Source: Pseudomonas sp. GR 6-02
Lineage (GTDB): Bacteria > Pseudomonadota > Gammaproteobacteria > Pseudomonadales > Pseudomonadaceae
Length of the DNA: 64,000 nt
NCBI RefSeq assembly: GCF_001655615.1
Contig: NZ_CP011567.1
Location: forward strand, 3,233,001 to 3,297,000
Direction: 5' to 3'
Numbering within the stretch: position 1 is the first letter of the stretch; each line of letters opens with the position of its first letter. This document shows, in pieces, positions 3,018 to 48,530 of the stretch. A program made the translations under genes and the position numbers. The notes beneath the pieces are model-generated. The model was not told where the DNA came from and did not search any database. It saw only the letters and a list, made by a program, of their open reading frames with translations.

Positions 3018-3025
3018 GGCGCGCC

Positions 3026-20880: not shown

Positions 20881-21361
20881 CTATGACAGCCTATAATGTC
20901 TTCCCGCCGGGAGATTCCTAGAGCTAGGTAAAGGCGTGCGGGTAGCCATTGTATGGTTCATGGCAAGCTAGATCGTAGATAGCAGAGATGGGCCAAAATG
21001 AACGGGGGGCAGAGGCCTGCTTTCGGCAAATAGCGGTCGTTAGCGCCTTGCCCTGCTAGTGAAGCTCTCCGCAATGTCAGCCCCTTACTCGCTGATTCAT
21101 ACTTAAATAGGGTTTCAGAGCAATGCTTGGTGCATGGGTCGCTAGGAGCGTAATTTTCGACGGCGTCGCCAGACATTGGCCAATTCCTGTATGGCTGTCC
21201 TTGAAATCCGCGCACCAACCCATGCCGAAAGCCACAGATTTCACACAGCGTCGTGATTGCTGACATTCCTGGAAGCATTGTTCATGCAGACCGATTAGGT
21301 GCGACGGATGCGGCAAGATCAGTGCTAGACCTCTGAGATATCAAACGACTACTGGGCAGGC
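20881..21361. other. Intergenic region without a supportable gene
   Basis: This stretch lies between the dioxygenase operator and the first island repeat. Small frames exist on the minus strand (20958-21278, 21077-21316) but none shows a recognisable domain or a convincing start. It may be decayed sequence at the island border. Confidence 0.4.
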
Positions 21362-21443
21362 GATCTGCAAACAACTCCGGCAACGAAGAATTTCCGATCC
21401 CGGTATGAAAGCTGATGTGCATATTTAAATAATATTTTTTGGA
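21362..21443 (+). repeat. Left direct repeat of island 1
   Basis: The block runs from GATCTGCAAACAACTCCGG to the AT-rich TTTAAATAATATTTTTTGGA. It is repeated nearly identically at 30179-30296. The two halves (21362-21388 and 21389-21443) are contiguous here but separated by an extra 35 bases in the right copy. The repeats face the same way and enclose the six-gene island 1. Confidence 0.8.
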
Positions 21444-21515
21444 GGATGCAGTGAGCAGAGTTCACTAAGGGGCTGATTGTTCGGCTGTTTCATATTTAGC
21501 TGCTTATACGCATAT

Positions 21516-21850
21516 TTAAAAAATCTCGACAATTGGCCCCCACGTAAGAATACGCAGGGGGGATTTTTCCGGGAGTTCGTCTTTTGACTGCAAGTAACGC
21601 TGCATCGAGCCGCCGATCATTGTAAGCACCGCGTCGTTGATCGTCGCCCCGGGGGCCATGCCTTTGATTTGCTTCACGGTGGCGAGATCCAGCGTCACCG
21701 AGTCCCAGACACGTTGGGCTGAAACGCTCGCGTTGAATCGCGTACGTGGTACGTCGCCCTAGGATGACAACAATGTTTGAGCGAGCCGGCGCAGGCCGTG
21801 CGGGGCGAGCTTGGGAAGCACACGTCTCAGCGGCGCTGACCATGCGCGGC
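21516..21850 (-). pseudogene. Remnant of a WS/DGAT wax ester synthase/acyltransferase
   Basis: On the minus strand one frame reads, from about 21850, a leucine-rich stretch, then a TAG codon (near 21763), then PRTRFNASVSAQRVWDS, LATVKQIKGMAPGATINDAV and RYLQSKDELPEKSPLRI before losing homology at 21516. These are the central motifs of bacterial wax ester synthase/diacylglycerol acyltransferases. The catalytic HHxxxDG region and the C-terminus are missing, so this is an internal fragment with at least one stop. It lies just inside the left island repeat, indicating earlier rearrangement here. Confidence 0.75.
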
Positions 21851-21931
21851 TTGCTCACCAGTGATCAAGGCGGCCTAGCAGGGTTGTTGTTCAACCGGCT
21901 ATGCCAGATCGCAAGCGATGGAGCTGGAAAC

Positions 21932-24715
21932 TCAAGGCGTCGCACATCCCACGGCACGCGCGATTGTCCAGTCAACCTCATCCCGCATCAGTTCGATCAC
22001 GCGGTCCTGACCTTGGCTATAGACCTCCTTTGACAGGTAGCTTACAAAGTCCCTCAGCGATGCTGCTTGAAAGCCGAATTCGATAGCAACTTCGCCTAGC
22101 CGCGCAGGCCGCTCGGCCAAGCTGGGGAAGGCTTCGCCGCTACCAACCAAATCGGTGAATATGCGAAACAACGCTTCGGGGACGACCCGCTCGAAGTTCG
22201 GCTCGGATAGCTCAGCAACCATTTCCCTCGCCTCGACCGCTCGCCGGGAAATGTCTGGCAGAATGGCACCTGCGAGAGACAATGTTTCATCAATCAGTCT
22301 CGCACGAGTGCTACTGAAGGCTGCGAAATGCCGGATTTCATCTAGCTTGCGAGCAGTGCGCAACGCCCCGATCCGTGCTGCCACAGCTATATGAATTGAT
22401 TCCGCATCAGTCATGGGCGCGGTATCGATGCCTGCCTGCCAGCTTTCAAAGGCCTCCGACAATCGGCCGAGACCTTCAAGCACACCACCTGCAATGTTCG
22501 ACACCGCAGCCTGGACAGACGTCGGCGCATCGCCCGTAGCCGCAAGTTTCGCGGCACCTGCCAACAATTCGTCCAAGCTACCCTGGATGAGCAACGCTTC
22601 AGCATACAGGTCTGCAAAGCCGCCGCGCATGTGGTCGATGCCGAAGCTGGCGAGTGTCTTCATGGGGTCTGCACCGTCCGCCACAGCCTGAAGCTCGCGG
22701 CGCACGACCTCCCTCAGTTCGCGGTCCACAACGGGCCCGTCACCTGCGCCCTTTTTGGCACTCAGCGACGCGCTGCCAAGACGCCGCCGCACATAGATAC
22801 GCGATTGTGGAGGCAACTCGTCGAGTGCACCGCGCAGCGACATGCCTGCTACATCGTCCCAACGAGCGTCGAGTTCGGCAGCGTCCTGTGCCAGCCGCAG
22901 GCGATGGTATAGCTCTTCCGTTCGTGAAATGGCATCGTCACTTTTTCCATAAAACTCGACTGCCGCCTCATTGATCTGTCTTGCAACCGTTTCACTAATC
23001 GTGGTGTCAAGATCGGGCAGCATCAGCGCTCGGACGTCGGCCCGATGCCAGAGCGCATTAGGGTCAGGGTCGGAGGGGGTCACCGAAAACAACTGGCCTT
23101 CTTTTCCAGCCTTGCGTATCAGTTGCTCCGCAACGTCTTTTGATTTGTCGATCTGGCATGGCCCAGCCAGTACGTGCGTGATCACGCCTGACGTAAGTCG
23201 CCGAACGAGCAAGCCAGGGCGCGCGACTTTGACGAGGTCCTTGTCACGGATACGTTTAAGCACTCGATCATACAAGTTTGCCTGAATGCGTTCCGGGTCA
23301 TTGCGAAGGCTTTTCACCCAATGCTTAGGATCGAAAGCATCCTTGTCCTTTTCCATCAGTGAGACCGCTAGCCGAAGTGCCAGCGGCGAACGGCCTACCG
23401 TGGCTATCACGCGATGGAGGGCAGTCTCGTCGAGCGCGATACCTTGCCTTATCGCCTCGTTGGTTAGATAGGTCCTAGCCTCGCCGTCAGAAAATTGCTC
23501 AAGGTTGATTAGCAAATTGAGCCTATTAACTATCATTCTGTCAGCAGCGAAGCTTCTCGACACGCAGATCACGAACGGCAGTGCTCCCCCTTGCTGCATC
23601 TGCTTTGCGATATGGAAGATGCTGTAATTGGCTTCATCGTCCAAACCCAGTATTTGCTCCATGCTGTCGAAGATGAAGATTATCCGAGGAGGAGACTGAT
23701 CAGACATACGGTTGAAAAGGCGAGCCAGCTCAGTGATCTGCTCGCCTCGCCCAAGATAGTTGCGGGTCGAGCGTGAATAGGAGTGCGATTCCAGTCCGTA
23801 TTGTGAAGAGTTTGGCCCGTCGTTCAACAGTTTGTCGATCATCGCCGGCGGAAGCCACCGCCGTGCCTGTCGCATCAACTCGCCGGTAAGCGTGTCAAGG
23901 CTTGAAAAGTAGCCGTCGCGGTTTTGTAGATCCCGCCGATCAAAGTCGAAATGGAAAACCGCCGAAGGAAATTGACTTAATTTGGGCCCAAAGTATTTAA
24001 CTGCCCGGCGCCACTGCCGCCCTAAAGGCGTTGGAGATGGGGTTGTTTCGCTATTGAGCAAATCAGAAACGAAACAGCTAACGAGCAGCGACTTGCCCAT
24101 ACCGCCAGGTGCTTCGATCGCGACGCCCGCAGCGTGGTCTCGCCAGAGTTTGTGCAGAGTTTCAAGATCTTTTTCACGCCCAACAAAGCGATGCAGGTCG
24201 GCCCCACCAAGAGCTAGCGTGAGGTCGAGTCGCTGGATCATGCTCTCCAACTTACCTTCAGTGACGTTTGGGCTCACGCCTGCGGCTACTGCGCAGCCGG
24301 TGGCCACACGTAAGGCAGACAACTGTTCGCGGTCATATATGTCGACGGAAAATTTTTCGCCATCGAGCATGGCGCGCAGCATTCGCTCGACAGCCGTGAG
24401 GGCAAATTCTGGCACGGCATTGAACGCTTTTCGGGCAGCTTTCACGCCAAAGCCTTCCAATGCGCGCAACCGTAGATCGCTTGGGATACGAAGTGCATCC
24501 GCACCGTCGCTGGTGAAGGCAGGTTTCGCAACGTCCTGGATCGCAATGGAAGTCAACAATGCGTCCTCACGCAATTTCGCGTCGGCTTCTCTGTGATTCG
24601 AATGCCATTGTGCGAGCAAGTCGCCAGAGCGGAAGCTCTCACGTACCGCTGCGGCCGCCCAAAGTTCGCGCGTAGGGTCTTGCGTATTGCTGATCGCTGC
24701 ATCTAGGGTGCTCAT
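21932..24715 (-). CDS. STAND-type NTPase with helical C-terminus (island 1)
   Basis: The 927-residue protein contains a STAND/AAA-like NTPase near residues 180-450: the entry motif RFVGREKDLETLHKLW, Walker A APGGMGKSLLV and Walker B RIIFIFDSMEQI. This is followed by a winged-helix-like part and about 400 residues of alpha-helical, TPR-like sequence. ATG 24715 overlaps the preceding gene's stop (ATGA), so translation is coupled to the EAD-NTPase gene. I see no enzymatic effector domain fused to it. It probably acts as the sensor or scaffold ATPase of the protease-containing system. The exact family is not recognised. Confidence 0.82.
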   Translation of the reverse strand: MSTLDAAISNTQDPTRELWAAAAVRESFRSGDLLAQWHSNHREADAKLREDALLTSIAIQDVAKPAFTSDGADALRIPSDLRLRALEGFGVKAARKAFNAVPEFALTAVERMLRAMLDGEKFSVDIYDREQLSALRVATGCAVAAGVSPNVTEGKLESMIQRLDLTLALGGADLHRFVGREKDLETLHKLWRDHAAGVAIEAPGGMGKSLLVSCFVSDLLNSETTPSPTPLGRQWRRAVKYFGPKLSQFPSAVFHFDFDRRDLQNRDGYFSSLDTLTGELMRQARRWLPPAMIDKLLNDGPNSSQYGLESHSYSRSTRNYLGRGEQITELARLFNRMSDQSPPRIIFIFDSMEQILGLDDEANYSIFHIAKQMQQGGALPFVICVSRSFAADRMIVNRLNLLINLEQFSDGEARTYLTNEAIRQGIALDETALHRVIATVGRSPLALRLAVSLMEKDKDAFDPKHWVKSLRNDPERIQANLYDRVLKRIRDKDLVKVARPGLLVRRLTSGVITHVLAGPCQIDKSKDVAEQLIRKAGKEGQLFSVTPSDPDPNALWHRADVRALMLPDLDTTISETVARQINEAAVEFYGKSDDAISRTEELYHRLRLAQDAAELDARWDDVAGMSLRGALDELPPQSRIYVRRRLGSASLSAKKGAGDGPVVDRELREVVRRELQAVADGADPMKTLASFGIDHMRGGFADLYAEALLIQGSLDELLAGAAKLAATGDAPTSVQAAVSNIAGGVLEGLGRLSEAFESWQAGIDTAPMTDAESIHIAVAARIGALRTARKLDEIRHFAAFSSTRARLIDETLSLAGAILPDISRRAVEAREMVAELSEPNFERVVPEALFRIFTDLVGSGEAFPSLAERPARLGEVAIEFGFQAASLRDFVSYLSKEVYSQGQDRVIELMRDEVDWTIARAVGCATP

Positions 24716-25791
24716 GCTCCCACCTCGACCCGCAAATCGACTAGTTTGGCAAAAACCTCCCGACAAAGATCAGAGCCACTGTACTGTCGCGCGAGCGCTT
24801 GCGCGTTACCGATGCGCAGATCGAGTTCGGTCTGCTGAAGCGCCTTACGCCCCAAGTTGTTCAGTGCGATTGCCGCGTCGCGGATCTCGCTGTCGCTGAA
24901 AGGGGTGAGCAGCTCCTGCTGCGCCCTACGGCCCGGATCCACAGGCTCCGTGACTGCGTCTGGCCCGAGCAGGAAGATCACGCACTTGCCAAACATTCCC
25001 TCAAGCCTCTCTCGGCACAACAGCGATACGAATCTTTTCACCTCGGGCCTTAGATCCCGGTCAAGACTGTCGAAGACCAACCAATAGGGTTTGCTCCAAT
25101 TGCCAGCAGCGCGAGCGAGACAGGCAGCGAGCTCCTCCGCGAAGCGCGCAGCCAAGGTGTCCGAGGTGGTACCGTCTGAAGTGGGCTTCTTGGCATCGGT
25201 GATCTTGAGATTGCGTACCAGCGCTTCAAACAGGACATCAAGCGTTTGATTGGCAAGTGTGGCGCTAACTAGGTCGAACTTGAGTGCCTCCGCTACGCCT
25301 GTATCTGCCACGTGCTTGATCAGATACCAGCTGTGGCTGCGACCCAATCCTCGTGCTCCGGCGACTTTGATGATGCTGACACCAGCCCCGGGCCCACCAC
25401 CATAACTAATCGCGTCCTTTAGGTATTGACGCAGTGCACTGCGATTAACAATTGGCCTACCTTCCGCAAGCCGCGAATCTGACGGACATCCCATTCGCTT
25501 GAGCGCGTCCTGAGTCGCTTGAATCCGCACCACGGTCTCTTGCAAGATCGCGACCTCCGGACTTGCGCCTATCATGGGTATCAATCCCGCCAACAAATCC
25601 ACAAGGCAGCTGCCATCACGCTTGATCCAGAAAAAAAAGTCGGCAACGATTGAGTCGATCGGCAGGGTGTCCGAACTGAAATCAGCAATGGATAAGTTGC
25701 TATAGTTCCTCAGCCAGTTGTTAAAGCCCCTTTGATCGAAGCACCGTAAAACGGCAAGCAGTGCCTTGCGTTCGTCCGGCAGTATTTCCAT
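24712..25791 (-). CDS. EAD-like domain fused to degenerate P-loop NTPase (island 1)
   Basis: The 359-residue protein has residues 1-80 (ALLAVLRCFDQRGFNNWL ... CLVDLLAGLIPMIG) resembling effector-associated domains (EADs), the adaptor-like modules described in bacterial conflict systems. A P-loop-like region follows with GARGLGRSH, where the Walker lysine is replaced by arginine, and Walker B YWLVFDSLDRDL. ATG 25791 begins one base after the protease gene stop, and its own stop overlaps the STAND NTPase start. The three genes therefore form one translationally coupled unit. It could bridge the protease (via EAD-EAD contact) and the STAND ATPase; this is inference. Confidence 0.75.
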   Translation of the reverse strand: MEILPDERKALLAVLRCFDQRGFNNWLRNYSNLSIADFSSDTLPIDSIVADFFFWIKRDGSCLVDLLAGLIPMIGASPEVAILQETVVRIQATQDALKRMGCPSDSRLAEGRPIVNRSALRQYLKDAISYGGGPGAGVSIIKVAGARGLGRSHSWYLIKHVADTGVAEALKFDLVSATLANQTLDVLFEALVRNLKITDAKKPTSDGTTSDTLAARFAEELAACLARAAGNWSKPYWLVFDSLDRDLRPEVKRFVSLLCRERLEGMFGKCVIFLLGPDAVTEPVDPGRRAQQELLTPFSDSEIRDAAIALNNLGRKALQQTELDLRIGNAQALARQYSGSDLCREVFAKLVDLRVEVGA

Positions 25792-25792
25792 C

Positions 25793-26812
25793 TCACACCC
25801 CCACATTATTCGCGCGCGCATCGGCGAGAATTGCGCCCAACGGAATACCTTCGTTGTATGGCACTTTCGCAGGCCCGCCGCTCTGTCCGGCGTGGTGGAT
25901 GCCGATCAGGCAGAGTGCGGCATCGAATACGGGCGCACCGGAAGAACCTGGTTCGGTATTTACGCTATGGCGAAAGCGAGTAGCGCCGAGGTTGAGCACA
26001 GATCCGAGGTCGATCTTCATCGGTTTGCCACCAGGATGCTGCAGTAGCAGCAGACCAGCATTCATCGCAATGGCCGAGGGGGCCGAAACGTCGATCCGAC
26101 CACGCGGATCGCCGTCTGCCACGATAGGTTCTTTGGCCAGCTTCCGCTCGAGTTTGAGGATTGCATAGTCAAGTGCGCCGGAATCGGTGGCCATAGGCCC
26201 GTTAATCAGATCTTCCGACGCGTGGGGACTGAAGGCGAGCAGGGCGTTGGCCATCACGTCCAGCGCCGGAGTCGTATAGCCTGCACCGTTGCTTTTGTAG
26301 TCGAAGCGGCAAATTACCGGACCGGTCAATTTACCTTCGCTGCTAATCTTGGAGGCGATCACATGATGATTGGTTAATACCAAGTCCTCAGCGATCAGTG
26401 TTCCGGTGCCAAACCCGGCTCCTGTGTCGATCTGGCATACCGCCGCTTCAAGGGATGCTAGTTTACTTCGGAACGCATCGACGTCCTGATAAGGCGTGCC
26501 TGCTCGAATTAGTACTTCCAAGTCTGACAGTGCCGGTGTCACACCAAAGCCCACGGTGGCAGCTACCTGGCCGACCTCGACCACACTGGGGCGAGCATCT
26601 CGTACAGCCGCGATCAATTGCTCGGTAGTGAACCGAAGTTGGAAATAGTCAATGACTTCAATAACCTGGGTTTTCCAGGGCAAAAATGAGTTGGTAAATG
26701 TATTATATGGGAGGCCGAAACGCTGTAGCAGCAGTGACTGCATGTCAGTCTGGCTGAAACTTTCCTCAACGGCTCTTTTGAATACGCCCAGCATCGGGTG
26801 TTGAAGTCGCAT
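25793..26812 (-). CDS. EAD-trypsin-like serine protease (island 1)
   Basis: The 339-residue protein has an EAD1-like module at residues 5-75 (FKRAVEESFSQTDMQSLLLQ ... LIAAVRDARPS) followed by a trypsin-like protease domain with the full triad: His in LTNHHVIA, Asp in GALDYAILKL, Ser in EPGSSGAPVFD. No signal peptide is seen, so it should act in the cytoplasm. ATG 26812 has AGGAGG five bases upstream; the longer frame to 26878 has no such site. Trypsin-like proteases with EADs are known components of NTP-dependent immunity systems, where proteolysis activates or constitutes the effector response. Confidence 0.85.
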   Translation of the reverse strand: MRLQHPMLGVFKRAVEESFSQTDMQSLLLQRFGLPYNTFTNSFLPWKTQVIEVIDYFQLRFTTEQLIAAVRDARPSVVEVGQVAATVGFGVTPALSDLEVLIRAGTPYQDVDAFRSKLASLEAAVCQIDTGAGFGTGTLIAEDLVLTNHHVIASKISSEGKLTGPVICRFDYKSNGAGYTTPALDVMANALLAFSPHASEDLINGPMATDSGALDYAILKLERKLAKEPIVADGDPRGRIDVSAPSAIAMNAGLLLLQHPGGKPMKIDLGSVLNLGATRFRHSVNTEPGSSGAPVFDAALCLIGIHHAGQSGGPAKVPYNEGIPLGAILADARANNVGV

Positions 26813-26937
26813 GGCGCCTCCTAGATAGTAATATCTCCAGCGGCGACAAGTGCCTTCAACATCACTGCGGCACCGCATTGCTTAGAGATAGCGTTTTCGT
26901 CGTATACATGGTCTGCAACAAACTTGCCCTTGGTGTA

Positions 26938-28272
26938 CTAGTTGGAAAAACTCCACAGGTAAGGGGAGTTGATCAAGTGTTTGTAGTACGAAAAACCATT
27001 GTAGCTTTCAAATCGATGTAGTGTGCGCGCCAGACTCCAATCGGGCTGATGCCCCATATTCTCGAATATGAGCGCATCCGTTGCACTTGCTTCCCAATCG
27101 TTAGGTGGATTCCAGACTTCTGGGCGACCGGCGGGATGCTGCACGGTACGGGCCGACAAGGGATCGCCATTGTGAAGGTGCGTTGCGAAATTGAACGTCC
27201 CTTCTAGTGCATGGACAATGCCGATGAACCACCAGGGCACGCCAGTGGATAGGGCTACCGGGGCATAGTGTGGCTTGTACTGCAATAGCTTTCTGCGGTG
27301 CCATTCGACTTGGGAGGCCCACTCCGGCCTGATGGACATGCCTGCATAAAGTGCTTCATAACGCTCCTTGAGATCTGCGAACTTGATGCTCTTGAAGGGG
27401 GGCAGCGGATGTGGGGGGGAGGGTTTTACTGCTGTGAGCGTTGGCACCGAAGCGACGGGCTTGCGTTGAGAGGCGAGATCCGCTCGGCTGAGTTCGTCAT
27501 AGCGGCGCAGCAGTGCCGCAGAGCGCGCTGTAACGTCGGGGTCCCCGCTGTCCTGCAGCGCAGTCAACCGTTGGAGCAGCGGAGTCAAGGCAAGCAATGC
27601 CTGAGTGGCTGCATGGAGCTCAGCTATCGCCGCATCATAATCGATAGTGCCTGGAGCCACTTGTGACACTGTGAGGGGAGCAATTGTCGTTACCTCGTCC
27701 GATATTAACCAAGCGTTGGTCGAATCATAGAGGTCCTTCGTCGACATCACCGACACATGCATGTGGTGATTATGTGGGTTGGCGCCAGTATAGGGCCGCC
27801 ACGCCCAAGGCGGTTGCCCACCTTTTGCCTCGGAGGCGCAGATTCGCCGATTCCAGATCATGTACTTGATCCGCGGATCGTGGCTGGTGCGCAGCATCTC
27901 TACGAGCTTGTTGCAGTCGCAGCCTTTGGCCGGATCATGGGTAAAGTCGCGCGCAGTAACTACGCCGACGCCTTCATCGGTGATCCAGGGATTGTGATCC
28001 GAACTGCGCGAGGCATGTGCGGCATCGCCGATGCCACCGTCGCTCGCCTTGCTGCGGCCGGGGGCCCATTCGTTGACTTGCTTTAAAAGCGTGTCGAGTG
28101 ACCGCGCAACACGCCAACTGTTCACACCCGCCTCAAGCCCACCCAGTACAACGGGCGGCGACTCGGGGTCATTGTGCATATCGCCTTCGTTTTTGACTGA
28201 GTCGAGAGCCTTGGCCTTTTTGCTTTTCGGGATTTTCCCAACTCGATGCAGCTTGTCTCGATCTTTAGTCAT
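26938..28272 (-). CDS. Two-domain peptidoglycan hydrolase: M15-like peptidase + lysozyme-like domain (island 1)
   Basis: The 444-residue protein has an N-terminal M15/VanY-like domain (residues about 55-178) with zinc-ligand candidates His in SSDHNPW, Asp in VTARDFTHD and His in NPHNHHMHVSV. A linker of about 110 residues leads to a C-terminal glycosidase-like domain with a candidate catalytic Glu in HALEGTFNFATHLHNGDPL and the ending YYKHLINSPYLWSFS. No signal peptide is visible; the N-terminus is basic (KDRDKLHRVGKIPKSKKAK). Such pairs are usual in phage endolysins and cell-wall toxins. It is 125 bases upstream of the protease gene on the same strand, so it may share its transcript. Confidence 0.78.
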   Translation of the reverse strand: MTKDRDKLHRVGKIPKSKKAKALDSVKNEGDMHNDPESPPVVLGGLEAGVNSWRVARSLDTLLKQVNEWAPGRSKASDGGIGDAAHASRSSDHNPWITDEGVGVVTARDFTHDPAKGCDCNKLVEMLRTSHDPRIKYMIWNRRICASEAKGGQPPWAWRPYTGANPHNHHMHVSVMSTKDLYDSTNAWLISDEVTTIAPLTVSQVAPGTIDYDAAIAELHAATQALLALTPLLQRLTALQDSGDPDVTARSAALLRRYDELSRADLASQRKPVASVPTLTAVKPSPPHPLPPFKSIKFADLKERYEALYAGMSIRPEWASQVEWHRRKLLQYKPHYAPVALSTGVPWWFIGIVHALEGTFNFATHLHNGDPLSARTVQHPAGRPEVWNPPNDWEASATDALIFENMGHQPDWSLARTLHRFESYNGFSYYKHLINSPYLWSFSN

Positions 28273-28373
28273 TGCCACACCCGAATAGGTTGCTTTATTT
28301 CATGATGAGCGTTGCTTTAAGCGAAACCTAAATCAATACTCGAAAAGTATCGGCACGATATGGAGCATTCGCA

Positions 28374-29477
28374 ATGAGCGTCTACCGAATTTATGGCGAT
28401 AAACTACTGAGCAAAACTGAATTTGCCGATGCCGTAGCTGAGGCTGGCAATAACGCACTTGATCCAAACGTCTTTCTGACGAACGTTGCAGCTGATATCG
28501 CGCTTGTAGAGACTTCAGCGCTCGAAAATACAATGAATCCTGCAGTCACGCAGTTCGTGCCTATCGGTTTTGGCAGGCCGCTGACTATTCTAATACGAGA
28601 AATCTATACGGGCCGTTATCCATCTCGGGGCTTTCTCGGCAGCAGCACTAAACCGATGGCCGTCGTTACTGGGCTCAAAGACTATTCGGCTTATGCTGCA
28701 ACAAGCCGCGCAGTGAACTTTTTAATGAAGGATGTAAAGCCCCATACCCGGTTTAAAGCACCACCTACATTCACTGATGGTACCAATGTTGTGGCCTATT
28801 CGCCGGCCGTGGTAACCGACTCCTTCCATTTCACTATCGAGATTGCTTTCGATAAGTTCGACGATAGCTTGTTCGACTTGGTATCGAAGGGGCTTGCCAC
28901 CGCCGCCGGTATTCCGGTGCTCATGCCCGCCGCCGGCTACCTGCTGGCCGCAAGCGGCCTGGTAAAGATTGGCGCCAGCGTTGCTGACGGATTAATCGAT
29001 GGCAAAGCGTCTTTCTCAGTCACGGACAGCTTCGACTTCAACTTGCCTGGTACTGCCGCCCCGGCTGCTGACTTTCGCGTCCTCTGTCATTTCGATGCCA
29101 ATGGAATGACCTACGACCCGGTGCAAGGCCTGCTCAACCCGAATGGTACAGTCTACCAAGGCGATGAACCCTACGTAGTGATTAGCCTCGACGGTGCGGT
29201 CCGTAAAAATCTTGAATCCTTTTCTGCCGCTGTCGCCACAGCCGGCATCCTGAAGCAGTTCTTCAATATGCGTGATGGCGCAGAGGTCATATCAACGTCA
29301 CTTATCGATGCGGTGAAACTCGCCAGCGATATGAAATATCGTGGTCAGGCGGAGGACCTGCAGAGACAGATCGAATTAGCAGTTGGGACCGAAAAAAATG
29401 AGTTACAGGCGCGGCTCGACGCAATTAACAAGAACATCCTGACCCAAACACTCAGGGTAGGAGCTGCGCCAAAGTAA
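28374..29477 (+). CDS. Unknown protein with long hydrophobic helix (island 1)
   Basis: I do not recognise a family for this 367-residue protein. Residues 1-165 are mixed strand-rich sequence. Residues about 173-208 form a long Ala/Gly/Leu-rich hydrophobic segment (AAGIPVLMPAAGYLLAASGL), a beta-rich part follows (SFSVTDSFDFNLPG), and the last 60 residues are charged and helical (EDLQRQIELAVGTEKNELQA). There is no signal peptide. It is divergent from the hydrolase gene and sits in the same repeat-bounded island as a cytoplasmic protease. A membrane-active or pore-forming effector is conceivable, but that is speculation. Confidence 0.72.
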   Translation: MSVYRIYGDKLLSKTEFADAVAEAGNNALDPNVFLTNVAADIALVETSALENTMNPAVTQFVPIGFGRPLTILIREIYTGRYPSRGFLGSSTKPMAVVTGLKDYSAYAATSRAVNFLMKDVKPHTRFKAPPTFTDGTNVVAYSPAVVTDSFHFTIEIAFDKFDDSLFDLVSKGLATAAGIPVLMPAAGYLLAASGLVKIGASVADGLIDGKASFSVTDSFDFNLPGTAAPAADFRVLCHFDANGMTYDPVQGLLNPNGTVYQGDEPYVVISLDGAVRKNLESFSAAVATAGILKQFFNMRDGAEVISTSLIDAVKLASDMKYRGQAEDLQRQIELAVGTEKNELQARLDAINKNILTQTLRVGAAPK

Positions 29478-29528
29478 ACCGATTAAACGTCTGTTGCCAC
29501 GCGACTTCATCAGGGTGGACCTGCAACC

Positions 29529-30149
29529 ATGAACACGAAACCAACCACGACCTTCAACGATTTCGAGGACGCCGTTGACTTTGTCGATGGCCTCCTTGCC
29601 AAGCAACCCGACGCGTCCGAATCGGCACTCGAGACGCTTGTCGATTTCGGTAAGTTCGAAGGGATGCCTGCACAGATCGAACTGGACGATGATGGTCGCA
29701 GCGCACGACTTCTGCGCGCGATCACTTATTACAGCCCCAAAGGCCTAGATTGGCCGGTACCGGTTGGTGCTTGGCTCGACGGTGCATCTATCCCGCGAAT
29801 CTTCTGGACAATAATTGGCGGGCCCTTCGAGGGTAAATATCGCAACGCTTCGATCGTTCATGATCATTATTGCATAGCCCAAACCCGCAGTTGGCGCGAT
29901 ACTCACCTTATGTTCCATGACGCAATGCGCTGTAGTGGCGTTGGTAAAACCCAAGCCACTGTTATGTACTATGCGGTTTATCGCTTCGGGCCGAGATGGG
30001 GCGTGGCTGGACTCGAATCGCTCACCAGTGCAGCGGACGAGATTAGAGACGCAAATGCGGATTCATTCGTGCAGGATGCCATGCGCATTGTAGCGGAGGA
30101 ATTAGGGCCAGAGGCGGCATCCAAACTTGCAGACGCGCACACCATTTAA
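29529..30149 (+). CDS. DUF1353 family protein (island 1)
   Basis: The 206-residue protein has the DUF1353 signature GAWLDGASIPRIFW, then YRNASIVHDHYCIAQTRSWR and MFHDAMRCSGVG. DUF1353 proteins are small, common in prophages and accessory islands, and have no firm function; conserved Asp/His residues suggest metal binding or hydrolysis. It follows the unknown 367-residue gene by 51 bases on the same strand. Residues 1-75 are an acidic extension not typical of the short phage versions. Confidence 0.8.
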   Translation: MNTKPTTTFNDFEDAVDFVDGLLAKQPDASESALETLVDFGKFEGMPAQIELDDDGRSARLLRAITYYSPKGLDWPVPVGAWLDGASIPRIFWTIIGGPFEGKYRNASIVHDHYCIAQTRSWRDTHLMFHDAMRCSGVGKTQATVMYYAVYRFGPRWGVAGLESLTSAADEIRDANADSFVQDAMRIVAEELGPEAASKLADAHTI

Positions 30150-30178
30150 CGAAGGAACATGCGCCGGGGAGGAACAGT

Positions 30179-30296
30179 GATCTGCAAAAAGCTCCGGCAA
30201 CGAAGGACGTCAGACTCGATTCACACGCTAACGTTTTAAGGATTTCCGATCCTGGTATGAAAGCTGATGTGCATATTTAAATAAAATTTTTCTGGA
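30179..30296 (+). repeat. Right direct repeat of island 1 (with 35-base insertion relative to left copy)
   Basis: 30179-30205 matches 21362-21388 and 30241-30296 matches 21389-21443. The intervening 30206-30240 is unique to this copy. Read in frame from 30179, the whole copy is open for 33 codons (…TKDVRLDSHANVLRISDPG…) and ends in TAA. It may therefore be the 3' end of an old coding gene, the sort of sequence many integrases use as target. The left copy lacks 35 bases and is out of frame. Confidence 0.75.
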
Positions 30297-30545
30297 CGGC
30301 CCTGTTGCCCCTGTCGTATTTCAGCGACGCAACAAGAATGTCGTCTGATCGCAGCTCCTGCAACTCCTAACGAGAGTCAACTGTTGCGTAACGGATGTCG
30401 GCGATATACGACAGGTCATCCTTTTCGTGCCTACTTGGAGAGATGGCAATTTAGGAATATTTCAGCTCCGAAGTAGGAGAGGATGTTGCCGCAGGCCGAA
30501 AACTGACCCATTAGAGGCTGCTCTGCCGACTGAAAACGGACTTCG
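30297..30545. other. Non-coding sequence between island 1 and IS21 remnant
   Basis: No gene is supportable here. The sequence carries short GC-poor stretches and no clear hairpin with T-run. The right part near 30500-30545 may belong to the end of the IS21-type element that follows. Confidence 0.35.
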
Positions 30546-30940: not shown

Positions 30941-31168
30941 GTGTAGGCCTGGCTTACACGAGATGAGTTGGGCGTACGCTCACGGCTCTAATTAGATAAA
31001 TCCATACAATCTGAAGCTGCGCAGTGCTGGCTGAAAGAACCTTTGACGGCCCTCGTACGCGCGCTGAAAATGATAAGAAAAAATTTATACTCAATGCTCA
31101 AAGTACGCCTGCGCTCGCGGCGCCCTGATACGTGAGCATCTCGGCATCTCCAATTGGAAGCTATTACA

Positions 31169-34100
31169 ATGGATATGAACAACACGGCTTTAAATCTGGA
31201 ATACGCAAGCAAACGCATCAAACCGAGCAAAGACACCATCTTGGTCATCGGCACAGGCATGAGTATGGGGCTGACCGATGGACAAGTCCCCCAGCTTGCC
31301 TGGACTGGGCTGATTCGAAGCGGATTTCGCTACGCTGTCGAGATCGGGAAAATCCAACAGGCCAGCGCTGAGAACTGGCTAAAGCTTTTAGACGGGTCGC
31401 CGACCACTACCGAGATCCTGCATGTGGCCGGTTTCCTGTCGGGTAGCCTGTCCAGCGGCGATGGTTACGATTACGCCGCATGGCTGACAAAAGAGTTCAG
31501 TGAAGTCGAGATTCACAACGAGGCGCTTGCCAATACCGTCAGGGCTTTATCGGACGCAGGGGTAAAAATTTGCACTCTCAACTATGACTCGTTGCTAGAG
31601 AATGTCACCAACCTTTCACCCGTGTATATGACCGAGTCAGATGAGGTCATCGAGTGGTTCAAAGGCGAGCGTAAAGGCATTCTTCACCTACACGGCCACT
31701 GGAAGAAGCCCGACACCTGCATTCTGAGCAGTGGAGATTATGAAACCACGATACAAAGCAGTACACGCAACTTCTTCCAGCAGCACCTGACAGTGTTTGA
31801 AAACCTAGTGTTCGTAGGTTGCGGAGGCACGTTTGAAGACCCCAATTTCGACAAAACGCTCGGCTGGCTGAGAAAAGAGCTCAAGTCGACCAAGCACTCT
31901 ACTTTTGCACTGATCAAGGATTCAGAAGTCACTGCGCGTAAAGCGGATGCAGCATGGAAAAATATCGTCGAGCCAATCGGCTTCGGCACGAATCATTCGT
32001 CTCTTGGGCAGTTCCTTGATGGACTGTTCCACGAGGTTACAAGTCAGAACCATGGGGCGTACCCAGATCTGCGAGGCAACACCGCTATCCAACGTATGGA
32101 GCAAGGGCAAAAGACCGCCACCCTGGATGGCATTCATAGCCCGCTCCCCCCAGCACCTCAAGCTCACAGCGTCAGGCACGCCCAGTCATTCCAAGCGGAG
32201 CAGATCCTGAATCTCCACAGACGCTTGTGGTTGGCTGCTGACTGGGGGATGGAAGAAGATGAATTCATTTCCGCACTGATCGCGCGTATATCTAACAAAA
32301 CCAACAAGGTTTATTCGGTAAACATTGGCAACTACACCGACAAAGCGTCCTTCTACCGCCAAATCGAAGAGCTTTTGGGCGCTTCATTCGAATCATTCTG
32401 TAGCACCTTGTCGCTCATTGACCAGCCTTACTTGCTTCTAAGGGACGTTCCGCTCGACACCTGTGACGACAAGGAAAAACTCCAAGCCGATCTCCTAAGC
32501 CTGACGGATATTCTTACTTCCTTTTGCCCGAATCTCCGGATGATTTTAATAAGTCGGAATCTGCCCGCCTGGAGAAACGAGGCGGTCGAGCTGACTGCTT
32601 TGGATGGTGCCGATACCAGGGCGTACATCGAGTCACACCTTCTCTACCAAGGCGGCTTGGGCAACGATGATTTCACGCAGCTTTATGAACACACCAACGG
32701 CGTCCCTCGGATCATCAAGGAAGCGCTGGATAAGCTTGTCGTCGCATCACTGGAAGAGATCATCAGTGAGCGAGGCAGCTCACGCATCAATCTGACGGGC
32801 CGCTTCGGAGACTCCATCAAGGCACTGTCAACTGCGAAGGAAATCGAAAAGCGCTATGCATTTTCTCTGCTTAAGAGCTTGGCTGCGTTCCCTTACGGCG
32901 AATACCTGGACAACATCAAGCGGGTCGATAGATCGAAGAAATATTCGATTGATCACGTGGTCATCCTCCAGCGAGAAGGTTTCATTTATGTGGAGGATCA
33001 GGACAGCTTCGGCCACACCGGCACCCGGGGTTCTAAAAAAAGGCTCATCGTCACCCGTCCTGTGAGGCAGTGGCTCGCCCAAGAGACGAAGCGCAAGGAA
33101 ATCGCGAAGATCAAAAATCAGGCCTACCAGCTCTACTTCGGTGAAGATTGGGAGACCCTGAATCCCAAGCTGCATCATATCTTCAAGGCGAATGACATCA
33201 GCGAAAAATCGTCCGAGATCAACAACGCCAAGTACTTCATCGTTGAAGTCTTCGTCGAAGGCAAAACCAACGAAAGGTGGCGTACTGTTGGCATGGAACT
33301 CGCCTCGCAGTTCTGCGCGACAGTGAGCAAAAAATCTTATTACAAGGTCGTGCAGGACTTGTATATCGCGCTGAAGTCGATGCTAGATAGCTGGGATAAG
33401 GATCAAAAATACTGGTTCTTTATTTACTTATGCGCGCAGTCGATCCGGATGGTTGGTGACAAGGCAAATGCTGGTGAGGCACTCCAAATGCTGCTGGGGT
33501 GCCAGGATCACATTGATCAGCCAAAGCTGATAGGTTCGATCAAGCTGCATATCGCTATGATCTATTCAGGGAGGAAAGATCATGCCCAAGCTGTTGAGTA
33601 TGCCACTCTGGCGCAGAAGCTGAGCAAGGGCAGCGTCGCGATGCAGGCCGCCCATATCGCGCTTTCAAACAGTGATCTCTCCACCAGAGAAGCTGATATA
33701 TCAAAGATCCAGGCTAAGGCAAAAACCAAAGCAAGCACGCTGTACGCCAATATTGCGTTAGATCGTGCTGATGATCTCGAAGCTCCTGCCAGAGCCGAAA
33801 TGCTCAAAGAGCTTGTCGAGTACTGTCACGAGAACAAAGACTTGTATAACCAAATCCGGGCGACGCTCGCCTACGCAGACTCACTTATGACAGTCCGCGG
33901 TTCGCTCGACGCTAATGAAATCTCCACGCTCATCAGCATTTACCACCATCTATACCATGACAATCTGACGCCACTACATTCAAAATGCCACCGCATCCTC
34001 TGGGCGGCTTTTGAGGTAAATAATGACTACATCAACCTGCTTCAGCTATTCAAGTACAGTTCACTCTACTGGCGGTTGCGTGACGAGCAGAAACCTGAGC

Positions 34101-34207
34101 TTGAAGCGGTGAATAAATTTAAAACTCTTGGCCTTCCCGAAACCATGCCCGAGCGTGATTCCGCAGTATCGTATTACTACGGAAGACTCGCAACGATCGA
34201 GATCTAA
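31169..34207 (+). CDS. SIR2-domain protein with degenerate STAND-like NTPase and helical C-terminus
   Basis: The protein of about 1,012 residues has an N-terminal SIR2-like NADase domain: VIGTGMSMGL (residues about 26-35), the catalytic Asn in CTLNYDSLLE (about 138) and the His in ILHLHGHWKKP (about 174), followed by VFVGCGGTFEDPNF. The central region (about 340-540) resembles a STAND NTPase (LISRNLPAWRNEAVELTALD, YEHTNGVPRIIKEALDKL), but the expected Walker A is replaced by LAADWGMEEDEF. The C-terminal 450 residues are TPR-like helices. SIR2 domains in this context deplete NAD+ upon phage sensing. ATG 31169 is preferred over TTG 31154. Confidence 0.82.
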   Translation: MDMNNTALNLEYASKRIKPSKDTILVIGTGMSMGLTDGQVPQLAWTGLIRSGFRYAVEIGKIQQASAENWLKLLDGSPTTTEILHVAGFLSGSLSSGDGYDYAAWLTKEFSEVEIHNEALANTVRALSDAGVKICTLNYDSLLENVTNLSPVYMTESDEVIEWFKGERKGILHLHGHWKKPDTCILSSGDYETTIQSSTRNFFQQHLTVFENLVFVGCGGTFEDPNFDKTLGWLRKELKSTKHSTFALIKDSEVTARKADAAWKNIVEPIGFGTNHSSLGQFLDGLFHEVTSQNHGAYPDLRGNTAIQRMEQGQKTATLDGIHSPLPPAPQAHSVRHAQSFQAEQILNLHRRLWLAADWGMEEDEFISALIARISNKTNKVYSVNIGNYTDKASFYRQIEELLGASFESFCSTLSLIDQPYLLLRDVPLDTCDDKEKLQADLLSLTDILTSFCPNLRMILISRNLPAWRNEAVELTALDGADTRAYIESHLLYQGGLGNDDFTQLYEHTNGVPRIIKEALDKLVVASLEEIISERGSSRINLTGRFGDSIKALSTAKEIEKRYAFSLLKSLAAFPYGEYLDNIKRVDRSKKYSIDHVVILQREGFIYVEDQDSFGHTGTRGSKKRLIVTRPVRQWLAQETKRKEIAKIKNQAYQLYFGEDWETLNPKLHHIFKANDISEKSSEINNAKYFIVEVFVEGKTNERWRTVGMELASQFCATVSKKSYYKVVQDLYIALKSMLDSWDKDQKYWFFIYLCAQSIRMVGDKANAGEALQMLLGCQDHIDQPKLIGSIKLHIAMIYSGRKDHAQAVEYATLAQKLSKGSVAMQAAHIALSNSDLSTREADISKIQAKAKTKASTLYANIALDRADDLEAPARAEMLKELVEYCHENKDLYNQIRATLAYADSLMTVRGSLDANEISTLISIYHHLYHDNLTPLHSKCHRILWAAFEVNNDYINLLQLFKYSSLYWRLRDEQKPELEAVNKFKTLGLPETMPERDSAVSYYYGRLATIEI

Positions 34208-35051: not shown

Positions 35052-35208
35052 CTACGAATATACTCGGCAAGCCTTCCACACTCCTCAAGCCTTCGAAATG
35101 TCGTCGCTACAATGCCCTCACTGGGCGGGAAAGTAGTGTTCGCGCTGCCGATCAATTAATCTCGCTGTGCTGGCCCTCGGCCACGTCTCGCCCACGAAGG
35201 AACGTCCT

Positions 35209-38200
35209 ATGCAGCCCCATGATTCGATGCCGGCCGTGCTAGATCGGCAAATAGCAAACGAGCAAGATGACGCGTTTGGACACAGGCACTATGCCCAAGC
35301 ACTACGCAGCCTGGTTGAATCCGAACGCCATCAACCTCCTTTTAGCATCGGCCTTCTAGGGGGGTGGGGCACGGGTAAAAGCTCGATCAAGGAGCTATAC
35401 ACGAAAGGCTTGGAGGACGACGCCGATGCTATGCAAGGAAACAGCGCTAGAAAGAATCGCTTCAAAAGCATCACCTTCAACGCTTGGCGCTTTGGTGGCA
35501 AGGACCAGGACATCAAACGCGCGCTGCTGCGCCATGTCTTTTTGGAGCTCGGAGGTGACGAGAAGACGCTCCATGACAAATTGTTCCGGAACGTGACGCA
35601 CACAGAGCAGCAATGGAAAGGCTGGAAGGAGTATGGCCTTCAGCTATGGCGCGCCTGGGCAATGCCTCTGCCCGCATTCGTCATCGCGATGGGCATACTA
35701 TTACTCTTCGTTTGGGCTGGCTTGCAGATTGCTCCAGCAGATGCTCCCATCGTCCAGTCCACGCTTGCACTGATACTGACGGTCTCCTACAGCTACATAC
35801 TCAAACAGCTTAAACCCTCCAAGATCGATAGCTTTCGCTCAATCACTAAGGTTTCACTTCCTAGCGCGAGTGCTGAGCAGTACGAGGAAATGCTGCTGGA
35901 GCAACTAAAAGAATTTAAACAACCCTCCAAAGGCTTTCTGAGCAAGACCATTCCTTGCGAGCGCCTGGTCATTTTCGTCGATGACCTTGACCGACTTTCT
36001 GCCGAGGAGATGGTGCTCGGTCTTGATGCCGTTCGCGCGTTCATGGAGATTCCAACTGACAGACTTCCAAAAGGTCTTGGATTGGTATTCGTCATTTCCT
36101 GTGACGAGGCGAAGGTGGCTGATGCTCTTTGGCGCGGCCGCAGCCACAACCCGGAACAGCCGGGCACGGTGTTTAGCCACAATGATGCACGTCGATACTT
36201 GGATCGTATCTTCCAATTCCGCCTCGAAATACCACCACCTCCGCGCGGTGACATGCGTCAGTTCGCACTCAAGCATCTGCTGACATTTACAGACATTGCC
36301 GATGACCTTAACGGTAAGGTCGTAGCCGCTGAACAGCTGATTGAACGCATGATTCACGTGAACGTTGTCGACCCACGCAACGCGCTTCAGATCGTTAACG
36401 CGTTTGCTCAGTCATGGTGGCTGGCCAAGCGCCGAGAACAGGAGGGCGTCAATGGTCGTCCCGGTGGGTTGCATGATGGCGCTGTAACCGGATACCTGGA
36501 GTCGTTAGCTGCTCTCAGCGCAGCCAAAGTTAGCTTCCCTGATTTCTACCGTGATCTGCAGGATGATCCAGAGTTCCTTGATCGACTGACCGCGGTTTTT
36601 GTTAACGATCATCCAGTCTTGGAACTGCCCCTTGACGCTCAGCCTCTTTTACTTAAGCGTTATGTAATGTTGGAAACCGATAGCAAAGGGGGCAAGACCA
36701 CAAAAATCCGGGAAGGATGCAGAGAGCTGCGGCAGTTTCTTTCCAGTCTGGTCGGTATCCAGTGGCCCGTTTCCCTTCAGAGTCTCCTGCTGCTATCTGA
36801 AGACCCTATCAGCCGCAAGTTCGGCTCGGGTACCCGCATAATCTACGGCCTGCTAGTGTCGGGCGATACCCGAGGGCTGATTGAACACCTTTCGCCGCGC
36901 GCCGACCAGATCATGCTTAGTGAAGATCAGGCTCGCCTGCTGCACCAGATGATCGGAGAACTGCACTTGGAGCCGGCAAGCCGGCGACACAACGCGATGC
37001 GTGTCGTGGCTAACCTTCTGAACGACCTGCCTCCCCGAACTGTACGGTTGGTAATCGGTCACCTATGCACGGAGTTGGCGGCGTCCAGTAACTTGAGGTC
37101 GATGGTCGGCGTGTCGAAGCTGGCTTCGGTTTTGCCACTTGCTAACAGCCAGCAACAGCAAATCGTAGCCGCAGCCCTCGTCGGCGACCTTTGTACAGAG
37201 GATGCTCCTTTCGGCTTGCGCCTCGAAAACATGCAGACACCGAGTTTGGATGTCGCTATAGACATGGCAAAAGCAGTAGCCGAGATTGTTCTCGCTGTGT
37301 GGAAGACTCAAGGGCTTCCTGCCCCCCAAGATCAAATATTCAGGCAGTGGCTCCACACGCGATCCATCACCGTCGACGGCATAGCGCACTCATTTCCATT
37401 CAGCTTACTGGAAGAATGGATCGTTAGTAATGAGGAAATGCTTCTCCACACTCTGGGCACGGACTACGCGACCTTGCTTGCAGTTGAGGTTGAGGCAGGC
37501 CGCGCTGCGGAGATCAATATCCCTAGGGCGGCGTTACGGATCGGTAAGCTTTTCGAGCAGATGGCGTTGGCTGGTGAGGAAAGTCGGGCTGAGTTGTGGC
37601 CGTTGGTTGAGCGTTACCTGAGCCTGACAGAGAATGACCTCAAAGCCTGTGCATTTACTGTCCTTGAGCAGCATCACAACCTGATGAGCCATCAAGTGCT
37701 CTCGCAATGCCTAAGGAAAATGACGGAACTGCTGATTAACCATCCCGATCCGTCCATGGATTTTGATCGGGGTTTTAGGTGGTTGGTACAAATGACGGCC
37801 AGCCGCCTCGATCATCTGTCCGAAGCAACCAAGGACAGCTTGCTCGAACTGATTGAAAACATCACATCTGATCCTTACGAGGATGACGCAGTTGCGCTAT
37901 TCGAGCAATTGAAGCGTAGCGATGAATTGCTGGCCAAATCAGCGGAAGGGTGGGTCGCAACGCTGGCCGGTGAGCTACCGCTTAAATGCTGCGAAGCACT
38001 GTTAAAGAGCTATGTGAGATTGCCGGATGATGTAAAAATCTCAATTGTGGCTTACCTCGACAGCGGTTTCAAAACAGCTTCTCTACCTGCGCGTTTCGAT
38101 GCCCTTTATCAGATAGCTGTTCGCGCTATCCCAAGTACTTGCTGGAATGAAGCAGAGCTTCAGAGCCATCTCCGAACGGCTCTCAGCCAACTGCCATCCC

Positions 38201-41428: not shown

Positions 41429-41890
41429 CTAGTCAGGCTTATGCTCGTTGAGGTTGGGCAGGACCATCAGCGTATGTTCATCGTAATGAGGAAAAAATCG
41501 CTGCCATGCACGTACACCACCCAACTCGCCCACAGCTAGGATAATAGCCTTGTGAGAGGCCGTAAGCAGAGCGACTTGCCGCTCTAAATCTTCTATACGT
41601 TCGTCTTTCATTGCAAGACTGGCTATTAGCCGTTTTTGAGAGTTCTTTTTCGCTCGTTCTACCCATTGGTTTCGGGTTGTTTGCAATTGTTGATAGTGAG
41701 CAATTAGGTCTCTTCGAAATGTGTCCCGCGTGAGAGTGGAAACGGCGCCTAGATTCTCCATTCTACGCACAATGGCATGGGCAGTTATTCTCTCATCGTT
41801 TTCCAGCATGGAGTCAAGAACGCTAAGTAGATTGTCATCAAGATTAACCGCATTTGCGGTGCGGCGTACAGGCTTGCTCGGTGCTGGCAT
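41429..41890 (-). CDS. gmtX: GmtX-like small protein of a gamma-mobile-trio element
   Basis: The 153-residue protein has a basic N-terminus (PAPSKPVRRTANAV), a helical winged-helix-like part (ITAHAIVRRMENLGAVSTLT) and a coiled coil (MKDERIEDLERQVALLTASH). It ends the recombinase operon after two large tyrosine recombinases, the order of the gamma-mobile-trio (GmtY-GmtZ-GmtX) and, functionally, of Tn554 tnpABC. ATG 41890 has GGAG six bases upstream; GTG 41908 is an alternative. It is probably a DNA-binding accessory factor for transposition. The name rests on position and size. Confidence 0.6.
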   Translation of the reverse strand: MPAPSKPVRRTANAVNLDDNLLSVLDSMLENDERITAHAIVRRMENLGAVSTLTRDTFRRDLIAHYQQLQTTRNQWVERAKKNSQKRLIASLAMKDERIEDLERQVALLTASHKAIILAVGELGGVRAWQRFFPHYDEHTLMVLPNLNEHKPD

Positions 41891-41934
41891 ATTGACTCCG
41901 CTAGGCACGTAACAGGGCTTTAGCGCAAAAGCGG

Positions 41935-45745: not shown

Positions 45746-45769
45746 GCGTTGCTCCTTCATCTGTCCCTT

Positions 45770-46838: not shown

Positions 46839-46952
46839 AAGCGCAACAGCTGAAGCTGCTCCTTATGGGAGGAAGCGTTGCAGTTGAGCCTAGGTAATTT
46901 CCTGTGTAACGCAACACACACGAACATGCTCGTCTTACGTGTAATGTATATT

Positions 46953-46985
46953 ATGTTAAATGATGTGTCTTGGCGGAACTTCCTA
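46953..46985 (+). repeat. Direct repeat R1 (core GTTAAATGATGTGTC…GGAACTT)
   Basis: The 27-base core at 46955-46981 matches R2 at 23 of 27 and R3 at 23 of 27 positions, in the same orientation. It lies upstream of the decayed recombinase gene and at the left edge of the TIGR02391-family module. The upstream half of the longer R2/R3 repeat is not conserved here. Confidence 0.65.
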
Positions 46986-48276: not shown

Positions 48277-48530
48277 CACCGCCCTCCGTCCGATTTTTTG
48301 TGCCGCTTCTTTTTTAAAATGTCGATGGAGTAATTCAATCCGCCAAACTCAACTGCTCAAAGGACAGCTCGCGCAAGCCGCTAGAGCCAAGAAGGTCGGA
48401 AAGCCTGGAGAAACTTGCCCAAATATGCCGCACTTGAAGTCGCCGGCCTTTTTCCATGAACATAGACCTATGAACATTCTCCAACGGCATTAACCATAAG
48501 ACTACAGCAGCGTGCGGTTCCGAATGACTT

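Follow-up and report, generated by a model that had tools for sequence, protein, structure and literature searches.

The LypABC system of Caulobacter crescentus is tripartite and essential for lysis and release by gene transfer agents (Banks et al. 2026, PMC13236601). In the sections of that article considered here, LypA is a trypsin protease fused to a C-terminal ATPase and LypB is its NLR-like partner, and the downstream lytic effector is stated by the authors to be unknown. EAD1-linked lysozyme and papain-like peptidoglycan peptidases have already been noted in NucA-peptidase systems, according to the relevant sections of Kaur et al. 2020 (PMC7159879), and protease-activated pro-nucleases operate in several of the nuclease-protease systems covered by the consulted portion of a 2025 paper (PMC12799240). 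The words "lysozyme" and "peptidoglycan" are both absent from that portion, and "peptidoglycan" is absent from the consulted portion of the main text of Kaur et al. 2021 (PMC8195603). Among the matches listed for open-access titles and the beginnings of abstracts, no M15/lysozyme-type hydrolase in a CARD-NLR operon was present.

The window (the whole 64,000-nt stretch of Pseudomonas sp. GR 6-02 DNA analysed in this study, part of a single-contig 6.5-Mb genome) contains a cassette of six ORFs at 21932-30149, which were placed just as a preliminary description of this DNA had claimed, two of them being divergent from the rest. On the minus strand the order of transcription is a wall hydrolase (446 aa, 26938-28278), a trypsin-like protease with an EAD1-like N-terminus (25793-26812), a degenerate P-loop ATPase with the motif GRSHS that is homologous to the LypA-like C-terminal ATPase (gene 2, 24712-25791), and a LypB-like STAND NTPase (21932-24715). 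The plus strand carries, in divergent orientation to the hydrolase gene, a gene for a 367-aa protein (28374-29477) and, after it, one for a DUF1353 protein (29529-30149). The translational coupling proposed for the protease, gene 2 and the STAND gene (the trio) was confirmed, as the stop codon of the protease gene is separated from the start of gene 2 by a 1-nt gap and gene 2 overlaps the STAND gene in the sequence ATGA. The likely start of the protease is the ATG at 26812, which has AGGAGG ahead of it, the longest ORF starting at 26878. The hydrolase gene is located directly ahead of the protease gene.

When 72,556 plasmid records were searched by tblastn with gene 2, a single record was matched (37% identity), and this plasmid of Caulobacter rhizosphaerae (NZ_CP048816.1) turned out to carry relatives of all six cassette genes. 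The identity between the window and Caulobacter proteins was 51% for the hydrolase, 46% for the 367-aa protein, 43% for the protease, 38% for gene 2 and 37% for the STAND NTPase, and for the DUF1353 protein it was 38% over 81 residues only. Five of the six genes keep both order and orientation, with the 367-aa gene divergent from the row of hydrolase, protease, gene 2 and STAND genes, and the DUF1353 gene is found at the opposite end of the Caulobacter cassette. The coupling of the trio is nearly the same there (a 2-nt gap, then a 4-nt overlap as in the window), and the hydrolase and protease genes overlap by 17 nt. Judged by this joint recurrence, the six genes form a real unit, and the hydrolase, the 367-aa protein and the DUF1353 protein, which the preliminary description had put forward as possible conserved partners, all accompany the trio on the Caulobacter plasmid. 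Copies of the whole six-gene set were found in these two places only. At positions 1468-5409 of the Caulobacter locus (L004) a second EAD1-trypsin gene and two more genes lie directly beside the cassette, and one of these two showed a match to the tail of nSTAND1.

A third trio was found on a Paracoccus plasmid (two records), where it adjoins photolyase and sulphate genes. The hydrolase profiles gave no match in the 16.7-kb stretch around it, and because the Paracoccus trio shows no such hydrolase, this enzyme is not obligatory for the trio. A trio occurring widely without the hydrolase was the outcome that the preliminary description had named as speaking against it. What we found was a rare trio whose split form is accompanied by the hydrolase in two of three cases (the window and Caulobacter), none being detected in the remaining one (Paracoccus).

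The window STAND protein matched the Pfam families AAA_16 and nSTAND1 just below the cut-offs, and its Walker A motif reads GGMGKS, as it does in Caulobacter, and GGVGKS in Paracoccus. Homologues of this protein are encoded next to genes for LypA-sized trypsin proteins in the genomes G785 (same class as the window genome) and G585 (same phylum), in Polaromonas and in Rhizobium phaseoli, and in G785 and G585 the STAND gene directly adjoins the gene of the trypsin protein, which is 605 or 644 aa long. A C-terminal AAA-type match was detected in the LypA-length trypsin proteins of G785 and Polaromonas; in those of G585 and R. phaseoli, in which neither Pfam nor the gene-2 profile found a match, a C-terminal ATPase was assumed from length and layout. 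For the ATPase region of gene 2, represented by three sequences, an hhalign comparison with the C-terminal portions of five LypA-like proteins yielded a probability of 97.6% and an E value of 3.7e-12. The gene-2 profile itself detected the ATPase part with an E value of 3e-10 in Polaromonas and of 2e-8 in G785, and it did not match the LypA-like proteins of G585 or R. phaseoli. The P-loop lysine has been replaced by arginine in the window, Caulobacter, G785 and Polaromonas and is kept in Paracoccus. By this homology the trio corresponds to a CARD-NLR/LypABC-like module in split form, with the LypA-like part divided between two coupled genes and accompanied by a LypB-like STAND protein, a link that rests on layout and on LypA-like relatives, since it was these relatives that were compared rather than LypA and LypB of C. 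crescentus. The earlier assignment of the protease and STAND genes to a conflict-type module is thereby upheld. No endonuclease family was matched by Pfam among the six cassette genes, a LypC-like trypsin-endonuclease thus being absent, and for this reason the cassette was not filed as LypABC proper. Gene 2 had no match in viral contigs, and sequences of solved structures gave nothing useful for gene 2, the hydrolase or the 367-aa protein.

The catalytic part of the protease was readily recognised (Trypsin_2, Pfam, E 3.8e-14); among the sequences of solved structures this domain matched glutamyl endopeptidases best, and in PADLOC-DB 2.0.0 (2023) the only matches for the trio were those of this trypsin part to Avs1b and RT-Protease_XI. 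The preliminary description had seen an EAD both in the protease and in gene 2 and had proposed that contacts between the two relay sensing to the protease. For the protease the signal was weak: EAD1 was the best Pfam family for the N-terminus and covered nearly the whole model, with E values below significance at the cut-off (0.023 in the window, 0.0097 in Caulobacter), and in an hhalign comparison with a small collection of EAD1 sequences 79 columns were aligned, with an E value of 0.024 and a probability of only 2%. For gene 2 it was not, as neither Pfam nor hhalign revealed an EAD signal in the N-terminus of the window or Caulobacter protein, and a relay by EAD-EAD contacts is accordingly too strong a proposal for the window sequence. 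The sensing of phage by the STAND protein, which the preliminary description had put at the start of this relay, is likewise too strong a reading. In Paracoccus EAD1 scored above the cut-off in both the protease (8.3e-11) and gene 2 (2.4e-13), so a divergent EAD in gene 2 of the window would follow from orthology only. Comparison by hhalign of the N-termini of the protease and gene 2 with those of the LypA-like proteins disclosed no sequence link.

The hydrolase had been described as an M15 peptidase joined to a lysozyme-like domain, and this make-up was partly substantiated. Its M15-type domain spans approximately residues 54-192 and its lysozyme-like domain residues 297-446, and Pfam gave no match, M15 included. 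The zinc site of M15 peptidases is a conserved His/Asp/His pattern. Residues H88, H95, D111, H169, H172 and H174 of the M15-type domain were invariant in all 43 aligned sequences, the weakest M15 match (L070) having been left out of this count. In IMG/VR contigs the M15-type domain was found at 62 viral loci (33-64% identity) and the lysozyme-like domain at no fewer than 80 (32-56% identity), and the predicted fold of a viral homologue is suggestive of a lysozyme-like C-terminal domain. No viral ORF clearly joined the two types of domain, a lone weak match to the lysozyme profile being present among the M15 viral loci (L051, E 0.0073). By the homology of its parts, the hydrolase is made up of two phage-endolysin-type domains. 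A joint alignment of both domains was poor and was left unused.

The hydrolase ORF is shortened by an in-frame TAG (26938-26940) that follows the residues LWSFSN. The 38 in-frame codons past this TAG (26824-26937, minus strand) encode the conserved tail of the lysozyme-like domain, which is also present in the four cellular homologues that were aligned. In 77 of the 81 viral matches to this domain the alignment reached at least profile position 185, and 4 of the 16 positions that are invariant in 40 viral sequences fall beyond the point of the TAG. A search of the genome with the lysozyme-like domain likewise located one TAG within the domain. The C-terminal domain is thus probably damaged, unless the TAG is read through or represents a sequencing error, and the change looks recent because the 38 codons beyond it are still conserved. 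As the hydrolase is truncated in the window strain, the module may be impaired there. Within the hydrolase gene, at 27744-27775, there is also an overlapping palindrome with 21-nt arms, which possibly arose by chance.

The DUF1353 protein matched its Pfam family with an E value of 4.7e-22 and the phage tail-gene family PHROG 1158 with 4.3e-23. The 367-aa protein keeps its divergent place beside the hydrolase in Caulobacter, and a single-sequence structure model of it had a mean pLDDT of 32 and no usable fold. A distant relative (23% identity) is encoded on a Pseudarthrobacter plasmid, in a 21-kb stretch from which the trio is absent; neither the 367-aa protein nor this homologue matched anything in viral contigs, and the 62 viral M15 loci contained no match to the DUF1353 or 367-aa family profiles. 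A link with the 302-aa proteins encoded near Rhizobium hydrolases was considered and rejected, since among the ORFs of 17 sources the 367-aa profile matched only the window, L004 and L006.

Wall-hydrolase domains were also encountered in other operons with proteases. On plasmid pCpl of Sinorhizobium meliloti (L085, 3054-7468) a single protein unites trypsin and NucA nuclease parts with the lysozyme-like domain known from the window, the product of the following gene ends in the same M15-type domain, and further downstream there are a likely alpha/beta hydrolase gene and PAS, CHAT and S8 genes. Rhizobium leguminosarum combines the lysozyme-like domain with another M15 domain (Peptidase_M15_3) in one protein, which is encoded downstream of two caspase-family genes and separated from them by three others, and in Paroceanicella the domain occurs near patatin and S8 genes. 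The LypABC-like G585 locus (L076, 528-12741) encodes a trypsin-NucA protein, a lysozyme-like protein, a trypsin, a LypA-like protein, a STAND protein and an EAD1-trypsin; its lysozyme-like protein (255 aa), whose gene is flanked by the trypsin-NucA and trypsin genes and precedes the LypA-like and STAND genes, matched Pesticin (0.0015) and Phage_lysozyme (0.0086), both below the cut-off, and differs from the window hydrolase. Two cases run counter to this pattern, namely a Methylobacterium protein with the lysozyme-like domain that is encoded among unrelated genes and a Microvirga M15-type protein that has transposase and chitosanase genes around it and an S8 peptidase gene at a distance of about 8 kb. 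Twelve plasmid records were matched by the lysozyme-like domain, and these observations draw on the surroundings of five of them. On a Rhizobium johnstonii plasmid (L090), genes annotated as M15 metallopeptidase and peptidoglycan-binding protein are situated within 10 kb of a trypsin-NucA gene.

A LypA-like protein or a split pair beside a full STAND gene was found at seven loci (the window, L004, L008, L075, L076, L082 and L084), at least three of which (the window, L004 and L076) have an adjacent wall hydrolase, the neighbours of the other four having been scanned in part. L081 (G1418), where the STAND and trypsin genes are apart and a LypA-like match is lacking, and L083, which has a STAND fragment only, were left out of this count. 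The Polaromonas pair has NucA as a neighbour, and S8-trypsin or S8 proteases accompany the pairs of G785, Polaromonas and Rhizobium. The effector slot therefore looks variable among LypA-like/STAND loci, as far as their gene neighbourhoods indicate, and by its position and recurrence the wall hydrolase is a well-motivated candidate for the lytic effector of the window cassette.

The cassette was rare wherever we searched for its components. Gene 2 was matched in 1 of 369 genomes of the class, the STAND protein in 1 of 198 genomes of the family, the 367-aa profile in 1 of 398 genomes of the phylum and the lysozyme-like domain in 1 of 79 genomes of the genus, the sole match being in each case the genome of the window strain itself. 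Four of the 72,556 plasmid records were matched by the STAND protein and two by the 367-aa profile. With the STAND profile 3 of 299 genomes of the phylum were matched (the own genome, G785 and G585); in the class of G585 the number was 2 of 240 genomes (one match fragmentary), in its family 1 of 179 (G585 again) and in the family of G785 2 of 150. Genome contigs were also scanned with two short peptide patterns from the STAND alignment and two from a conserved part of the 367-aa protein; no relative was confirmed in either scan, and such an absence is weak evidence. Within the genomes and plasmids searched, the trio is rare and not widespread, and the cassette was likely gained horizontally.

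The surroundings of the cassette are those of a mobile island. Direct repeats of 54 nt, 94% identical, are present at 21386-21439 and 30238-30291 and matched only these two places in the genome. The preliminary description had taken them as the boundaries of the island; the repeats are real, but they belong to an integration-site region (21092-21534, the left end of the island, containing the left repeat) and to a partial second copy of it (30179-30298, containing the right repeat), and the insert runs on to about 46.93 kb. The left flank was matched in 8 of 79 same-genus genomes, and the integration-site region of about 440 nt in three of these eight (G1485, G1503 and G1460). In two of the three relatives the sequence found at 46935 in the window (46935-46966, the right end of the inserted DNA) comes 28 and 38 nt beyond this region, and the third has a more diverged form. 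Because these two relatives join the left-end region to the 46935 sequence, the inserted DNA comprises about 25.4 kb (21535-46934). None of the 11 window proteins tested was encoded in the 19.9-kb stretches of the three relatives (L179, L180 and L181) at E 1e-5. A self-contained transposon delimited by the direct repeats was rejected as a description, since no recombinase ORF was recognised between them and the relatives continue the integration site into 46935.

At its right end the island has a four-gene recombinase operon (41429-46838, minus strand), of whose products one scored above the Phage_integrase cut-off, one below it, and two had no integrase match. GInt islands, as treated in the sections of PMC5385486 considered here, are similar in having a four-gene recombinase operon at one end with a small last gene, variable cargo and an AT-rich opposite end, and their ginABCD operon encodes three integrases and a small fourth product. 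The island in the window differs from them in the internal partial copy of the end region that splits its cargo and in having only one product that passes the integrase cut-off (PMC5385486). This copy (30179-30298) separates the six-gene cassette from cargo with SIR2- and KAP-type genes, and it may reflect two insertions at one site. The SIR2_2 protein (1017 aa, 31154-34207, plus strand, E 4.6e-17), which also gave weak ThsA matches in PADLOC, is a probable defence gene product; at 35167-39282 (plus strand) a 1371-aa KAP-family P-loop NTPase (E 1.1e-26) is encoded, followed by a 519-aa protein without a Pfam match. Just outside the island, at 47419-48279 (minus strand), there is a Hypoth_Ymh protein (E 3.1e-12).

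The data show the gene content, the coupling, the relationship of gene 2 and of the STAND protein to LypABC-like modules, the endolysin-type make-up of the hydrolase and the conservation of all six genes in two bacteria. The trigger, the protease substrate, the passage of the hydrolase through the membrane and the lysis itself are inferred, and the proposed course is as follows. The STAND NTPase would detect an intruder, or a disturbance caused by it, and would oligomerise with ATP. It would then dock the protease via small N-terminal helical domains, with the help of the degenerate ATPase, so that the protease turns active and cleaves a partner. Subsequently the hydrolase would reach and cut peptidoglycan, and the cell would lyse before the intruder spreads, the 367-aa protein being a candidate helper for the passage of the hydrolase through the membrane. 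We give about an even chance to this reading of the island as a LypABC-like lysis-control module whose LypA part is split and whose likely executioner is the two-domain endolysin-type hydrolase. More tentatively, and with some doubt, we suggest that phage-type lysis enzymes may repeatedly have been captured by bacterial NLR-protease immune modules, giving the cell a regulated means of suicide of the very kind that phages employ, and that the 367-aa protein would replace a holin in giving access to the wall.

The trio could also work alone, with the protease as an effector on host or phage proteins and with the hydrolase, the 367-aa protein and the DUF1353 protein forming a separate co-travelling module, for example phage-type decoys that are guarded by, or that trigger, the STAND protein. 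The Paracoccus trio, with no hydrolase found, would suit this idea, and so would the match of DUF1353 to a phage tail-gene family and the phage-type nature of both hydrolase domains, as expected of bait. However, both six-gene copies have the hydrolase as the first gene of the row, in Caulobacter it overlaps the protease gene, and wall-hydrolase domains recur in other protease operons, so that a trio acting without the hydrolase appears rather unlikely to us. The decay of the island offers another account of the interrupted hydrolase: an old conflict cassette, defunct in the window strain, whose neighbourhood has been kept by chance. The TAG does remove positions that are invariant in 40 of 40 viral homologues, yet the other five ORFs are open, coupling and Walker A are kept, and the conserved codons beyond the TAG point to a recent change. 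Moreover, decay leaves the Caulobacter copy unexplained, and we regard it as improbable.

Finally, the module could control lysis in the strict manner of LypABC, where lysis frees particles or DNA and is not a means of defence. Both lysis and the release of gene transfer agents depend on LypABC, according to the sections consulted (PMC13236601), and a wall hydrolase would suit release; against this, the cassette is rare (STAND gene in 1 of 198 same-family genomes) and resides on a mobile island beside SIR2- and KAP-type genes, which makes a dedicated release function quite improbable. Returning to the preferred reading of a lysis-control module with the hydrolase as executioner, the cassette represents a concrete candidate for wall opening by an NLR-protease system, in a set kept in two bacteria whose proteins are 37-51% identical (DUF1353 being alignable over a short stretch). 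It also suggests a possible identity for the lytic effector described as unknown, in the sections considered, by the authors of the LypABC work (PMC13236601), and there is a hint that endolysin-type domains have been recruited repeatedly by conflict operons of protease, nuclease and caspase type.

In comparison with LypABC, the window cassette shares a trypsin protease, an ATPase region without conserved Walker residues and an NLR-like STAND protein in one operon, whereas LypA is one chain in C. crescentus and corresponds, by way of its LypA-like relatives, to two genes in the window; LypC is absent from the cassette, and a wall hydrolase, the 367-aa protein and the DUF1353 protein are added (PMC13236601, sections consulted). 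EAD conflict systems and the NucA-peptidase "System 3" have EAD1, trypsin and STAND components, which the cassette resembles with its trypsin and STAND proteins and with an EAD1-like copy that scores below the cut-off; the window hydrolase shows no EAD that could be recognised, and its neighbours are a LypA-like pair in split form (PMC7159879, in the sections consulted). Since EAD1-linked lysozyme and papain-like peptidases are on record in that source, the wall hydrolase, which the preliminary description had called a new kind of partner, is new in part. With the CARD-NLR anti-phage systems, such as the gasdermin operon of Lysobacter, the cassette would have in common a protease with a possibly death-like N-terminal domain, an NLR-like protein and a putative death effector, and it differs in that the effectors named in the consulted sections are gasdermins, phospholipases and endonucleases, while the window has a candidate wall hydrolase (PMC13236601). 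If the proposed role of the hydrolase is true, a wall-directed effector would join these gasdermin, phospholipase and endonuclease effectors of CARD-NLR systems.
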